A stretch of 64,000 bases of DNA, taken from NCBI RefSeq assembly GCF_003100395.1, contig NZ_CP029210.1, forward strand, positions 2,914,001 through 2,978,000. Reading direction: 5' to 3'. The DNA comes from Aquabacterium olei. Lineage in GTDB: Bacteria; Pseudomonadota; Gammaproteobacteria; Burkholderiales; Burkholderiaceae_C. Positions within the stretch are counted from its first letter, which is position 1; every line of letters begins with the position of its first letter. Of this stretch, positions 38,524 to 42,559 are shown piece by piece. The notes beneath the pieces were generated by a model. The model searched no databases. It was not told the DNA's origin and worked only from the letters and a program-made list of their open reading frames with translations. A program made the position numbers and the translations under genes.

Positions 38524-39699
38524 TCAATCGAACAGGCGGGCCTGTCCCGCGGCGGCATTCCGGCCCGGCGGCGCCCGGAAGGGTTGCACATCCAGCACGG
38601 GCGGGCGCCCATCGACGCCATGGCGCGCGGCTGCCTTGCGCACGCGCTGGCGGATCAGGTCGGCCCAGATGCCGGCGCCCTTCATGCGCCGGGCAAAGTC
38701 GGCTTCGTAGTCCCGCCCGCCGTGCAGTTCACGGATGCGGGCCATGATGCGCTCGGCCTTGTCGGGCACATGGTCGGCCAGCCAGCCCTGAAACAGCGGG
38801 TTCACCTCCCAGGGCAGGCGCACCACGGTGTAGTGAATGCTGGCGGCCCCGGCCTGCGCAGCCGCTTCGATGATGCGCTCGATCTCCGGCTCGTTAAGGA
38901 AGGGAATGATGGGCGCGACGTTGACCCCCACCGGCACGCCCGCTGCCGCAAGCCGCCGCACGGTCTCCAGTCGCCGCCACGGCGCTGCGGCGCGAGGCTC
39001 CAGCCTGAGCGACAGGCCCGCATCCAAGCTCGTGATGCTCACCATCACGTAGACCTGCTTGCGGTCGGCAGCCCGCGCCAGCAGGTCGATGTCGCGCTCC
39101 ACACCGCTGGACTTGGTGACGATGGTGTAGGGATGCCGACAGGCATCGAGCACCTCCAGCACCTGCCGGGTCAGGCGCCATTCGCGCTCCACGGGTTGGT
39201 AGGCGTCGGTGGCCGAGCCGATCTGGATGGGACTCGGCTGATAGCCCGGCCGGGCCAGTTCGCGCTGCAACGCCTGGGCCGCGTTGACCTTGGCGATCAG
39301 CCGCGTCTCGAAATCCAGCCCCGGTGAGAGGTTCAGGTAGCTGTGCGTGGGCCGCGCGTAGCAGTAGATACAGCCGTGCTCGCAGCCGCGGTAGGGGTTG
39401 ATGGCCCAGGTGAAGGGGATGTCGGGGGAATCGTTGCGAGACAGGATGGTGCGGGCCGTCTCGGCCTGGCATGTGGTGGGCTGCACCGCCGGCGGGGCCT
39501 CGAACGGATCATCGGTCTTTTGATCATCCGAGCGCAGAGCTGGCTGCCACTGCATGGGCTCCCAGCCGGTCTGATCGCGCTCGCGCGTACGGGCCTCGAA
39601 GCGATGCGCCAGCCGCGTGGCCGTGCCGCGGCCCTTGACGGGCGCGGCCGCCCGCCGGGCATCCGGGAACGCGTCAGACGGGGGAACGGGCTTGGGCAT
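38524..39699 (-). CDS. PA0069 family radical SAM protein (SplB-related)
   Basis: Cytoplasmic Fe-S protein of 391 aa. The radical SAM cluster motif CxxxCxxC is in NPYRGCEHGCIYCYARP, and the family N-terminal motif KGRGTATRLAHRFE is present at about 23-36. SPGLDFETRLIAKVNAA and TKSSGVERDIDLL are further landmarks. The family is distantly related to spore photoproduct lyase, but its activity is not established. The only reasonable start, ATG at 39699, coincides with the edge of a near-perfect LexA box, so the gene is probably SOS-induced. Confidence 0.88.
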   Translation of the reverse strand: MPKPVPPSDAFPDARRAAAPVKGRGTATRLAHRFEARTRERDQTGWEPMQWQPALRSDDQKTDDPFEAPPAVQPTTCQAETARTILSRNDSPDIPFTWAINPYRGCEHGCIYCYARPTHSYLNLSPGLDFETRLIAKVNAAQALQRELARPGYQPSPIQIGSATDAYQPVEREWRLTRQVLEVLDACRHPYTIVTKSSGVERDIDLLARAADRKQVYVMVSITSLDAGLSLRLEPRAAAPWRRLETVRRLAAAGVPVGVNVAPIIPFLNEPEIERIIEAAAQAGAASIHYTVVRLPWEVNPLFQGWLADHVPDKAERIMARIRELHGGRDYEADFARRMKGAGIWADLIRQRVRKAAARHGVDGRPPVLDVQPFRAPPGRNAAAGQARLFD

Positions 39700-39718
39700 A
39701 CTGTATTTTCATACAGTA
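39699..39718 (-). promoter_or_regulatory. LexA (SOS) box overlapping radical SAM gene start
   Basis: TACTGTATTTTCATACAGTA carries the LexA core CTGT-N8-ACAG and matches the E. coli consensus TACTGTATATATATACAGTA at 17 of 20 positions. It is the only LexA box of this quality noticed in the window. It overlaps the first base of the start codon and very likely the -10 region. Confidence 0.85.
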
Positions 39719-39746
39719 TCGCGCGCTGCGCAAACCCCTTCGCCCG

Positions 39747-40493
39747 TCAGGACCAGCTGACGCTCGCCGAGAACACATACCCCGCGCCATACACCGTCTT
39801 GATGATGCGCGGGTCCATCGGGTCGATCTCGATCTTGCGGCGCAGCCGCGAGATGCGCACGTCGATGCTGCGGTCCATGGGCGAGAGGCCACGGTGGCCG
39901 ACCAGTTGCTCGCGGCTGAGGATCTGGTGGGGGCGTTCGAGAAACGTCCGCAGCACCTGCACCTCGGCCACGCCCAGCACATGCTCGGTGCCGTCTTCCG
40001 CGCGCAGGATGTTGGCGGCGCAGTCCAGCGTCCAGCCGGCAAACGAGGCCAGCCGGCGCGCCGAGCCCACGGCCGTCCCCGTATGGGGCGCCCGCCGACG
40101 CAGGATGCTGCGCACCCGCGCCACCAGTTCACGCGGCTCGAACGGCTTGGTCACGTAGTCATCGCCGCCCAGTTCCAGCCCCATCACGCGGTCCACCGTG
40201 TGGCCGCGGCCGGTCAGGATCAGCACCCCGGCATGCGACTGCAGGGCGATCTGGCGCACCAGTTCGATCCCGTCCATGTCAGGCAGGCCGAGGTCGACGA
40301 TGCACAGGTCGGGTCGCGTGGTCTGCAGGCGGCGCAACACCGCCGCCCCGGTTCCGAAGGCTTCGGCCAGAAAGCCGAACTCGGTCAGCACATGCGTCAG
40401 CAGGCGGGCGATCGACAGGTCGTCGTCGACGATGTAGATCAGCGCCGGTGCCTGGCCGTCCTGCTCCGCTGTGGGAAGGTGTGGCTCGCTCAT
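39747..40493 (-). CDS. OmpR-family response regulator
   Basis: Two-domain regulator of 248 aa. The receiver has an acidic pocket (YIVDDDLSIARLL), a phospho-Asp in LCIVDLGLPDMDG, and the conserved Thr/Lys (LILTGRG, YVTKPFEPREL). The C-terminal winged helix shows LGVAEVQVLRTFLERP and RSIDVRISRLRRKIE with the terminal wing YGAGYVFS. It overlaps the hybrid kinase stop by 4 bp (ATGA), so it is the cognate partner. It may control the divergent acyl-CoA/acetate genes. Confidence 0.92.
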   Translation of the reverse strand: MSEPHLPTAEQDGQAPALIYIVDDDLSIARLLTHVLTEFGFLAEAFGTGAAVLRRLQTTRPDLCIVDLGLPDMDGIELVRQIALQSHAGVLILTGRGHTVDRVMGLELGGDDYVTKPFEPRELVARVRSILRRRAPHTGTAVGSARRLASFAGWTLDCAANILRAEDGTEHVLGVAEVQVLRTFLERPHQILSREQLVGHRGLSPMDRSIDVRISRLRRKIEIDPMDPRIIKTVYGAGYVFSASVSWS

Positions 40494-42454
40494 ACAGTGA
40501 GCTCCTCGATGGCAGCAGCCAGTTCGCTGGTGGTGAAGGGCTTGGCCAACAAGGGCAAGTCGGTCAGGGTGTCGATGCCGGGCGCGTACCCGCTCATCAG
40601 CAGCACCTGCTGGGCCTGGCCGCGTTCCCGCGCCTGACGGGCCAGGGCACGGCCGTCGATCTCGCCGGGCATCATGATGTCGGACAGCAGCAGCGTGATG
40701 CCGCTCATCTGCGCCAGGATCTCCTGGGCCTCGTGACCGTTGGCGGCCTCGATCACGGCAAAGCCCAGGTCCAGCAGGCTGCGCCGCACCACCTTGCGCA
40801 CGTCCCCGTCGTCCTCGACGAGCAGCGCCACACCGCGGCGCGCACTACCGGGCACATGGCCCGGTTCGTCCAGCGCGGGCAGCTCGGCCGGGGCCTCGGT
40901 GGCGGGCAGCCACAGGCTCACCGTGGTGCCCTGCCCCGGGGCGCTGCGCACGTCCACCGCACCGCCAGACTGCCGAACGAAGCCATACACCATGGCCATG
41001 CCCAGCCCGGTGCCACTGCCGTGCCGCTTGGTGGTGAAGAAGGGCTCGAACACACGCGCCAGTGTGGCGGCATCCATGCCGACCCCCTGGTCCTGCACCT
41101 CGATGCAGACATGCGGACCGGTCTGCAGTTGCAGCGCACGCGCCCGCGGGCCATCCAGATCACTGCACCGCGCACGCACGTCAATGCGGCCGCTGCCGGG
41201 CGTGGCATCGCGCGCATTCAGGATCAGGTTGACCAGCGCGTTCTCGAGCTGCGTGGCGTCCACCCAGGTCCACGCGGCGTCGTCGCCCGCGTGGGCCTGC
41301 AGCGTGAGGCAGGCCGGCAGCGCAGGCCGCACCAGGCGCACCACCGACGACACCAGGGCGCCGACATCGACGGCGGCAGCCTGCAGCGGCTGCTGCCGCG
41401 CAAACGTCATCAGGCCGCGGATCAGCTCGGCGCCACGGCGCGCGGCCGCCACGGCGGGCTGCGTGAACTCGCTCACCAGTTGATCCTGTGGCCGCGCATC
41501 GCCCAGCGCCGCCAGGTTGCCGATGATGACGGTGAGGATGTTGTTGAAGTCGTGGGCCAGGCCACCCGCGAGCTGGCCCATGGCCTCCATTTTCTGGGCG
41601 CGCTCGATCAGCGCCTGCGAACGCTTCTGCTCGGTCACATCGAAGGTCAGCTCGAAGCAGCCCACCACCTCGCCATCGGCCGTGCGGTCGGGGATGAGCG
41701 TGGTGCGCACCGACAGCGTCTCGCCCTGGATGGTGTGCAGCTCGTAGTCGAAGGTGACGGACTCGCCAGCCAGCGCCCGCTTCACATTGGGCTTGATGCC
41801 TTCGTAGACCTCGGGGCCCAGGAAGGCACGCGCACTCACGCGCTCCGGTCGCTTCGGGTCCAGCCCGAACCAGTCCTGGTAGCCGCGGTTGATGTACTCG
41901 TAGCCTCGGTCGCGCCGGAAGTAAGCCACAAGCGCCGGGATGGAGTCGGTCACCAGCCGCATCTGCTGCTCGCTGCGCTGCAACTCGGCGGTACGGGACC
42001 GCACGCGCGACTCCAGCTCGAGGTTGGCCTGCCGCAGCGCCTGCTCGGTGCGGCGCTGCTCGGTCACGTCCGAATACAGCGTGACGAAGCCGTGCCCCGG
42101 CAAGGGTTGGCCCGTGATGCGCAGGATGCGGCCGTCGGGCCGCGTGCGCTCGATGTCATGCGGCAGGAACTTGAGGGCGAGGTCGACACGCCGGCGCACG
42201 GCTTCGTCTTCGGGCTCGTCGCCGTACTCGCCACGGCGGGCGTTGTAGCGGATGAAGTCCTCGAAGGGCGCGCCGATGCGCGTCATCTCGGGTGGGAACG
42301 AGAGCAGCTCCAGAAAGGCCCGGTTCCAGGCCACCAGGTGCAACGAGGCGTCGAAGACCGTCAGGCCCTGGTCGAGCAGATCCAGACCGGCCTGCAGCGT
42401 CTGCTGCCGCCAGCTGCCGCCATCGGCAGGGGAAGAGGGGGGGGTGGCCGTCAC
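40490..42454 (-). CDS. PAS-containing hybrid sensor histidine kinase
   Basis: Soluble hybrid kinase of about 654 aa with two PAS domains (AGLDLLDQGLTVFD and IPALVAYFRRDRGYEYINRG), a HisKA domain (MGQLAGGLAHDFNNILT), HATPase boxes (NALVNLILNARDA, DQGVGMD, GLGMAMVYGF) and a C-terminal receiver (LLVEDDGDVRKV, LLSDIMMPGEIDG). There is no membrane segment. A GTG start at 42454 is chosen because GAGGAG lies 6 nt upstream; the frame is also open to 42559. It is cotranscribed with the regulator downstream. Confidence 0.88.
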   Translation of the reverse strand: MTATPPSSPADGGSWRQQTLQAGLDLLDQGLTVFDASLHLVAWNRAFLELLSFPPEMTRIGAPFEDFIRYNARRGEYGDEPEDEAVRRRVDLALKFLPHDIERTRPDGRILRITGQPLPGHGFVTLYSDVTEQRRTEQALRQANLELESRVRSRTAELQRSEQQMRLVTDSIPALVAYFRRDRGYEYINRGYQDWFGLDPKRPERVSARAFLGPEVYEGIKPNVKRALAGESVTFDYELHTIQGETLSVRTTLIPDRTADGEVVGCFELTFDVTEQKRSQALIERAQKMEAMGQLAGGLAHDFNNILTVIIGNLAALGDARPQDQLVSEFTQPAVAAARRGAELIRGLMTFARQQPLQAAAVDVGALVSSVVRLVRPALPACLTLQAHAGDDAAWTWVDATQLENALVNLILNARDATPGSGRIDVRARCSDLDGPRARALQLQTGPHVCIEVQDQGVGMDAATLARVFEPFFTTKRHGSGTGLGMAMVYGFVRQSGGAVDVRSAPGQGTTVSLWLPATEAPAELPALDEPGHVPGSARRGVALLVEDDGDVRKVVRRSLLDLGFAVIEAANGHEAQEILAQMSGITLLLSDIMMPGEIDGRALARQARERGQAQQVLLMSGYAPGIDTLTDLPLLAKPFTTSELAAAIEELTV

Positions 42455-42539
42455 GCTGTCTCCTCGTGGGCGGGCCTCGGACGGGCCCTTTGACTGCTGG
42501 ATTCTAGGCAGCAACGGGCCGGATCGCCGGCCACGACCG

Positions 42540-42559
42540 GTGACGCAAAGATTCGTCAC
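42540..42559. promoter_or_regulatory. Perfect dyad between hybrid kinase and acyl-CoA synthetase genes
   Basis: GTGACG-N8-CGTCAC, 6-bp arms, 20 bp in all, located in the divergent control region 85 bp from the kinase start and 116 bp from the synthetase start. It is a candidate site for the adjacent response regulator. The other bases of 42455-42675 show no gene. Confidence 0.4.

Follow-up and report, generated by a model that had tools for sequence, protein, structure and literature searches.

The window analysed here is a 64,000-nucleotide (nt) stretch of the Aquabacterium olei genome (Burkholderiales; RefSeq assembly GCF_003100395.1, contig NZ_CP029210.1, positions 2,914,001 to 2,978,000 of the forward strand). 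It carries a PA0069 family radical S-adenosylmethionine (SAM) gene (38524..39699, minus strand; 391 amino acids; NF033668, 440.3 bits, cut-off 360; PF04055, 51.3 bits) whose start codon, ATG (39697..39699, minus strand), overlaps a LexA (SOS) box, TACTGTATTTTCATACAGTA (39699..39718, no strand assigned), the A of the ATG being the final base of the box. The box matches 17 of 20 positions of the consensus TACTGTATATATATACAGTA, contains the full CTGT-N8-ACAG core and is conserved in relatives. The protein has a CxxxCxxC iron-sulphur motif (CEHGCIYC, codons 106-113; 39361..39384, minus strand) and ends in QARLF (codons 386-390 of 391; 38530..38544, minus strand), a putative beta sliding-clamp-binding motif. 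Here, we weigh the evidence that the box is a LexA operator and that the enzyme may act on damaged DNA at the clamp.

An earlier note on this DNA had described the box as a 17-of-20 match with a perfect core, placed on the only credible start codon of the gene, and both statements were borne out by direct reading and mismatch scans. With up to 3 mismatches allowed, the window holds the 20-mer at one place and none of 100 shuffles contains it, and in the 4.26-Mb genome CTGTATATATATACAG occurs, at the same tolerance, at two places (none for the backwards control), namely the radical SAM box and a site upstream of a umuD-type gene. An in-frame TGA sits within the box, upstream of the ATG, and no further ATG, GTG or TTG occurs from the ATG to residue 22, where the family profile begins. 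The genome encodes a canonical LexA (218.6 bits) and carries dnaN; sites lie at imuA (NF033429, 190.7 bits; one site, 16/20) and upstream of umuD (NF007621, 155.1 bits; one site, 16/20), lexA (two near-boxes, 14 and 13 of 20) and recA (one site, 12/20). With 17/20, the radical SAM box is the best of the six SOS-type sites compared, which are a chosen set and not all genome cores scored over 20 positions.

Conservation was scored with a relaxed rule (8/8 core positions, or at least 6/8 core with at least 14/20 overall), and gene-interior controls covered the order set and the named-contig set. Within the same GTDB family, the gene was present in 43 of 60 genomes and the box in 38 of 41 (31 with full core; partial matches G500 and G526 excluded). 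A sample of the order, where the earlier note had proposed looking for the box upstream of homologues, held the gene in 92 of 200 genomes and the box in 38 of 87 (26 with full core; partial matches G035, G052, G059, G120 and G144 excluded); the same rule applied inside the same genes gave 0/87. Among 80 named contigs, which are the best hits of one scan and hence a biased set, 63 had the box (53 with full core; interior control 0/80), including members of Burkholderia, Paraburkholderia, Caballeronia, Cupriavidus, Variovorax, Herbaspirillum, Massilia and Duganella; one Cupriavidus locus (L066) and a Pseudoduganella locus (L061) in this set had none. All five Pseudomonas loci were boxed. In the order sample, 36 of 65 genomes with canonical LexA had the box against 2 of 22 without, relatedness not being corrected for; one genome (G036) passed the relaxed rule at -245 though it has no lexA match, probably by chance.

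The strongest argument for LexA control is that the candidate operator appears to change where the LexA motif changes. In all four genomes of group f22, whose LexA-like proteins score far below the cut-off, GAAC-N4-GTTC lies about 50 nt before the conserved part of the gene, and it is found in 0 of the 83 other order genomes. Two f22 genomes were searched further: tandem GAACGNNCGTTC sites stand at imuA in both and one precedes recA in one of them, while several other such sites have no gene identified beside them. Plausibly, GAACGNNCGTTC is the SOS motif of these genomes, and a noncanonical betaproteobacterial LexA motif has been published. GAAC-N4-GTTC, the upstream site of Gallionella-type genomes, also occurs at two Nitrosomonadales/Gallionellaceae loci (L084 and L087). 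The consensus of the noncanonical betaproteobacterial motif is reportedly GAACGaaCGTTC. Alphaproteobacteria and actinobacteria have LexA motifs of their own. Among seven alphaproteobacterial records, GTTC-N7-GTTC stands just upstream of the gene in five (Paracoccus, Shinella, Sinorhizobium meliloti, Methylobacterium and Sphingomonas); Pseudorhodobacter has only a one-mismatch site of this type, read by eye, and Azospirillum has no upstream site by the chosen start and one 41 nt before a later in-frame start. Of four actinobacterial relatives, Streptomyces has a clear upstream GAAC-N4-GTTC, Nonomuraea a site that depends on the start chosen, Tsukamurella a GAAC-N5-GTTC read by eye, and Arthrobacter no LexA-type site that we found. 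Because the box is conserved and the upstream site changes where the LexA motif changes, LexA control of the radical SAM gene is highly probable on these comparisons. The SOS control put forward in the earlier note thus gains strong support from conservation, from the other SOS-type sites of the genome and from motif turnover; it is limited to certain lineages and had been predicted in print (see below).

Directly upstream (39747-42559, minus strand) lie genes for a PAS hybrid histidine kinase and an OmpR-type response regulator, which overlap by 4 nt, and the radical SAM gene follows the response regulator after 47 nt on the same strand, so that read-through would be possible. This arrangement raises the alternative that the box is no LexA site for the radical SAM gene at all, being instead a palindrome that arose by chance, a terminator or part of the two-component operon. 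The core alone would agree with chance, since 0.91 occurrences are expected in the window and 58 of 100 shuffles contain at least one. Against this stand the conservation of the box and its absence from the gene-interior controls, the turnover of the motif and the neighbours themselves: relatives of the regulator and the kinase adjoin only 4 and 2 of the 80 homologues, at about 30% identity, from which the box is judged to belong to the radical SAM gene. Control by the two-component neighbours was therefore rejected, those genes not being conserved beside the radical SAM gene, and so was the terminator, none having been found at the locus. We consider the alternative as a whole very improbable.

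The layout of the box and start codon also bears on how the gene would be transcribed. Of 102 boxed loci, 28 have an ATG whose A is the last base of the box, and so have 14 of 41 from the same family. Leaving aside the A-rich bases adjoining the box (up to 0.62 bits), no signal across the 26 unique loci of this kind is stronger than a TTG at positions -16 to -14 relative to the box (1.0, 0.76 and 0.56 bits); the position of the TTG is scattered in the other 73 boxed loci. At the window locus, this places a putative -35 element, TTGCGC (39728..39733, minus strand), 17 nt before a putative -10 element, GAAAAT (39705..39710, minus strand), which lies inside the box, 5 nt before the ATG, and is read from sequence where a strict scan is silent. 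The array TTGCGC-17 nt-GAAAAT-5 nt-ATG would fit a promoter whose transcript begins at the start codon, and no Shine-Dalgarno-like sequence was seen in any of the 26 unique loci. The nearly leaderless mRNA suggested in the earlier note is thus favoured by the nearly fixed spacing of the TTG and by the lack of Shine-Dalgarno-like sequences. In this subset of loci, the LexA box, -10 region and start codon appear fused, which would give a leaderless mRNA.

The distant kinship to spore photoproduct lyase (SPL) that had been proposed for the protein is supported by fold. The nearest solved fold is that of SPL (PDB 4fhc and mutants), and the two share CxxxCxxC with Tyr before the third Cys. Sequence comparison did not reach SPL at expectation values (E) up to 10, the SPL family models of NCBIfam and Pfam gave no match to the window protein at E 0.001, and the matches of its relatives to SPL models were weak and far below cut-off. 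The enzyme could nonetheless be an ordinary SPL, reversing 5-thyminyl-5,6-dihydrothymine in UV-damaged DNA, which would make the gene an SOS-controlled UV-repair gene as the published name splB implies. SPL uses an additional Cys (C140 of the solved enzyme), whereas here the three Cys of the CxxxCxxC motif are conserved in 170 of 170 aligned sequences, theirs are the only invariant Cys columns and the commonest extra Cys column reaches 84/170, as counted by alignment column. The spore photoproduct lesion is typical of dry spores, and SPL is not known to carry a clamp motif; the QxxLF tail of the window protein lies outside the aligned range, which stops at residue 366. On balance, an ordinary SPL is improbable. 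The structure alignment took in 28 of the 80 named loci, hand-picked for diversity. A sister family is Rv2578c family radical SAM (NF038135), an actinobacterial, separate NCBIfam equivalog for which the window protein scores 230.5 bits, under the cut-off of 430. We found no demonstrated substrate for PA0069-type proteins, though DNA repair photolyase is a widespread annotation for them.

A variable linker precedes the Q-x-x-L-F that closes the alignment. Of 173 proteins with a complete end, 159 have this ending and 171 a relaxed form of it, with no QxxLF in the other 58,969 residues; shuffled tails gave QxxLF in 66 and the relaxed pattern in 425 of 20,000. Of 197 proteins, 24 with an open 3' end are excluded from these counts, the three sets overlap slightly, and a relaxed tail match in G123 and an odd end in G473 look like artefacts. 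Within the same family, 40 of 41 proteins end in QxxLF. In the alignment of 170 sequences, 169 retain the Q, 165 the L and 161 the F. Of 171 proteins with the motif, 69 have L, 37 M and 35 G at position 2, and 90 have D or S at position 3. Seven alphaproteobacterial proteins end in QLSLF, QLSLL (two), QYSLF, QLTMF, QGELF and QLRLF. The four actinobacterial relatives end in QLTLL, QLRLL, QEPLF and QESLF, and two of them, from Streptomyces (QLTLL) and Tsukamurella (QESLF), exceed the NF038135 cut-off; SOS control in that sister family is indicated by one clear site among the four examined. Predicted structure has low confidence at the C-terminal end, as expected for a flexible peptide. Known clamp-binding SOS proteins of the ImuB/DinB type have a polymerase fold, whereas the PA0069 family is radical SAM; ImuB and DinB are induced by LexA cleavage and held to the sliding clamp by a QxxLF-like peptide. 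The bacterial clamp-binding motif is given in passages of PMC12309361 as QL[S/D]LF, generally QxxLF, with positions 1, 4 and 5 the most important. On this resemblance, PA0069-family proteins probably dock on the sliding clamp through their tail.

LexA control could also extend to an enzyme that modifies tRNA, protein or a small molecule, with the QxxLF tail serving another contact. We regard this as unlikely, though less so than an ordinary SPL. The Q, L and F kept in the family are the residues described as essential in passages of PMC12309361, where QxxLF is the consensus clamp motif, and they stand at the extreme end after a variable linker; the four actinobacterial sisters also have endings of this kind. 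SOS control under several LexA motifs likewise favours a role in DNA damage; if LexA control and clamp binding are both granted, a DNA substrate is likely.

The reading that we prefer, with a probability of roughly 0.58, is that a working LexA operator precedes the gene of a radical SAM enzyme which is induced in the SOS response, tethered to the clamp and active on damaged DNA. LexA on 39699-39718 would keep the gene off until DNA is damaged, and tight repression would be expected because bound LexA would cover the -10 region, the transcription start and the start codon. RecA would then trigger LexA cleavage, releasing a leaderless mRNA, and the enzyme, with its SPL-like fold, would be held on the beta sliding clamp by the C-terminal QxxLF peptide and act on damaged DNA at or behind replication forks, alongside the similarly boxed ImuA and UmuD systems. 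Of this reading, the box and its conservation, its tracking of the LexA motif type, the family assignment, the fold match and the C-terminal motif were observed; LexA binding, damage induction, clamp binding and a DNA substrate are what we infer. If this is right, the conserved clamp-binding-like tail and SOS control tell where and when the enzyme works, an orphan family becomes testable for damage-induced, clamp-dependent chemistry on DNA, and the fused operator, -10 region and start codon form a compact case in which one repressor would shut off transcription and leaderless initiation at once. More broadly, there are even odds that the PA0069 and Rv2578c families form a clamp-tethered class of radical SAM DNA-repair enzymes, in which direct-reversal or base-modifying chemistry is brought to the clamp like translesion polymerases and has been drawn into SOS under several LexA motifs.

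Several observations weigh against the clamp-tethered, SOS-induced enzyme. Genome-wide, CTGT-N8-ACAG cores number 23 against 20 for the backwards pattern, a weak count; because its frequency is near chance in both window and genome, the bare core proves nothing and was discarded as evidence by itself. In the rest of the class, outside the order, the box was found in only 10 of 85 (out of 102, after removal of G000 and G049 as members of the order set, of G250 and G261 for want of upstream DNA and of 13 for which there were only fragments). LexA control is hence frequent in the order and in some other groups without being a property of the whole family. Within the order sample, 29 of the 65 genomes with canonical LexA have no box by the relaxed rule. 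Genome-wide counts of GAACGNNCGTTC in the two f22 genomes were 8 and 8, against 6 and 24 backwards, and as the control is equally frequent the weight of this motif comes from its position, not its count. At positions 2 and 3, the QARLF of the window protein has A and R in place of the preferred L and S/D, and QxxLF tails also occur in members without a LexA box, so the tail is not tied to SOS control. Finally, the strict consensus scan called no promoter at the window locus, and the promoter assignment consequently rests on cross-locus comparison.

PA0069 itself is reported to belong to the LexA regulon determined experimentally in P. aeruginosa by Cirz et al. in 2006. Passages of PMC3323433 (2012) predict that LexA controls splB in alpha- and betaproteobacteria and term this the first evidence of an SOS-regulated photoreactivation enzyme; those of PMC8565304 (2021) place COG1533 SplB in SOS regulons, and those of PMC3765255 tie SplB-like photolyases to SOS operons. 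The passages of PMC3323433 and PMC8565304 describe splB as homologous to SPL, with LexA sites predicted for it in Burkholderia, Ralstonia, Cupriavidus, Variovorax and alphaproteobacteria. The published LexA-regulated splB is almost certainly the same gene as the PA0069 gene, an identity that we infer because those genera carry the PA0069 gene with a box. LexA regulation of this gene type is hence not new and is known at least by prediction. The same passages treat splB as a photolyase absent from the gammaproteobacterial regulon, whereas the Pseudomonas loci here are boxed, and they mention neither a clamp motif nor a start codon in the box. A microarray table in PMC6546240 has PA0069 with PA0669 and PA0670, and PMC5435343 has SplB raised by tea polyphenol in P. 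fluorescens; the passages of neither show SOS control. Limited searches of open-licence literature, in which a missing match is weak evidence of absence, found no account of PA0069 together with LexA, of a clamp-binding tail on a radical SAM enzyme or of the fused box, -10 and start layout. The additions made here are the clamp-binding-like tail and the fused operator-start layout, with DNA repair at the clamp as the leading hypothesis.

Some further loci differ from, or add to, this picture. General linkage to SOS genes was not seen: among 140 loci, only L056 and L230 matched the ImuA, UmuD, LexA, RecA or DnaN queries taken from the A. olei genome, with an imuA relative near the PA0069 gene at L056 and a umuD/lexA-like peptidase nearby at L230. 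On a Sphingomonas plasmid (L314), a gene annotated dnaE lies close to the PA0069 gene, in the opposite orientation. Six Xanthomonadales loci (L076, L079, L080, L081, L088 and L096) have neither CTGT-N8-ACAG nor the TTAG and TAGTA patterns tried; by eye, they share a CTGAGA-type hexamer about 20-45 nt ahead of the start region, which may mark another class of promoter. At L132 (G013, f14), where the LexA-like match of the genome is weak, a long inverted repeat seen by eye, TTGATCAATATAGTACGATCGTTCTATATTGATCA, precedes the gene and is a possible operator of another regulator. In the A. olei genome, a phage-type integrase gene is preceded at 15 nt by a CTGT-N8-ACAG core (L103:1497-1512, equal to C2:30895-30910), which may mark an SOS-controlled mobile element or have arisen by chance. 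Two loci (L192:460-2547, minus strand; L193:451-2538, plus strand) each have about 1 kb inserted in frame immediately ahead of the iron-sulphur motif, where LAGLIDADG_3 scores over and Intein_splicing below cut-off. These insertions are probable inteins, and an intein-containing Rv2578c model in NCBIfam suggests the same for the sister family.
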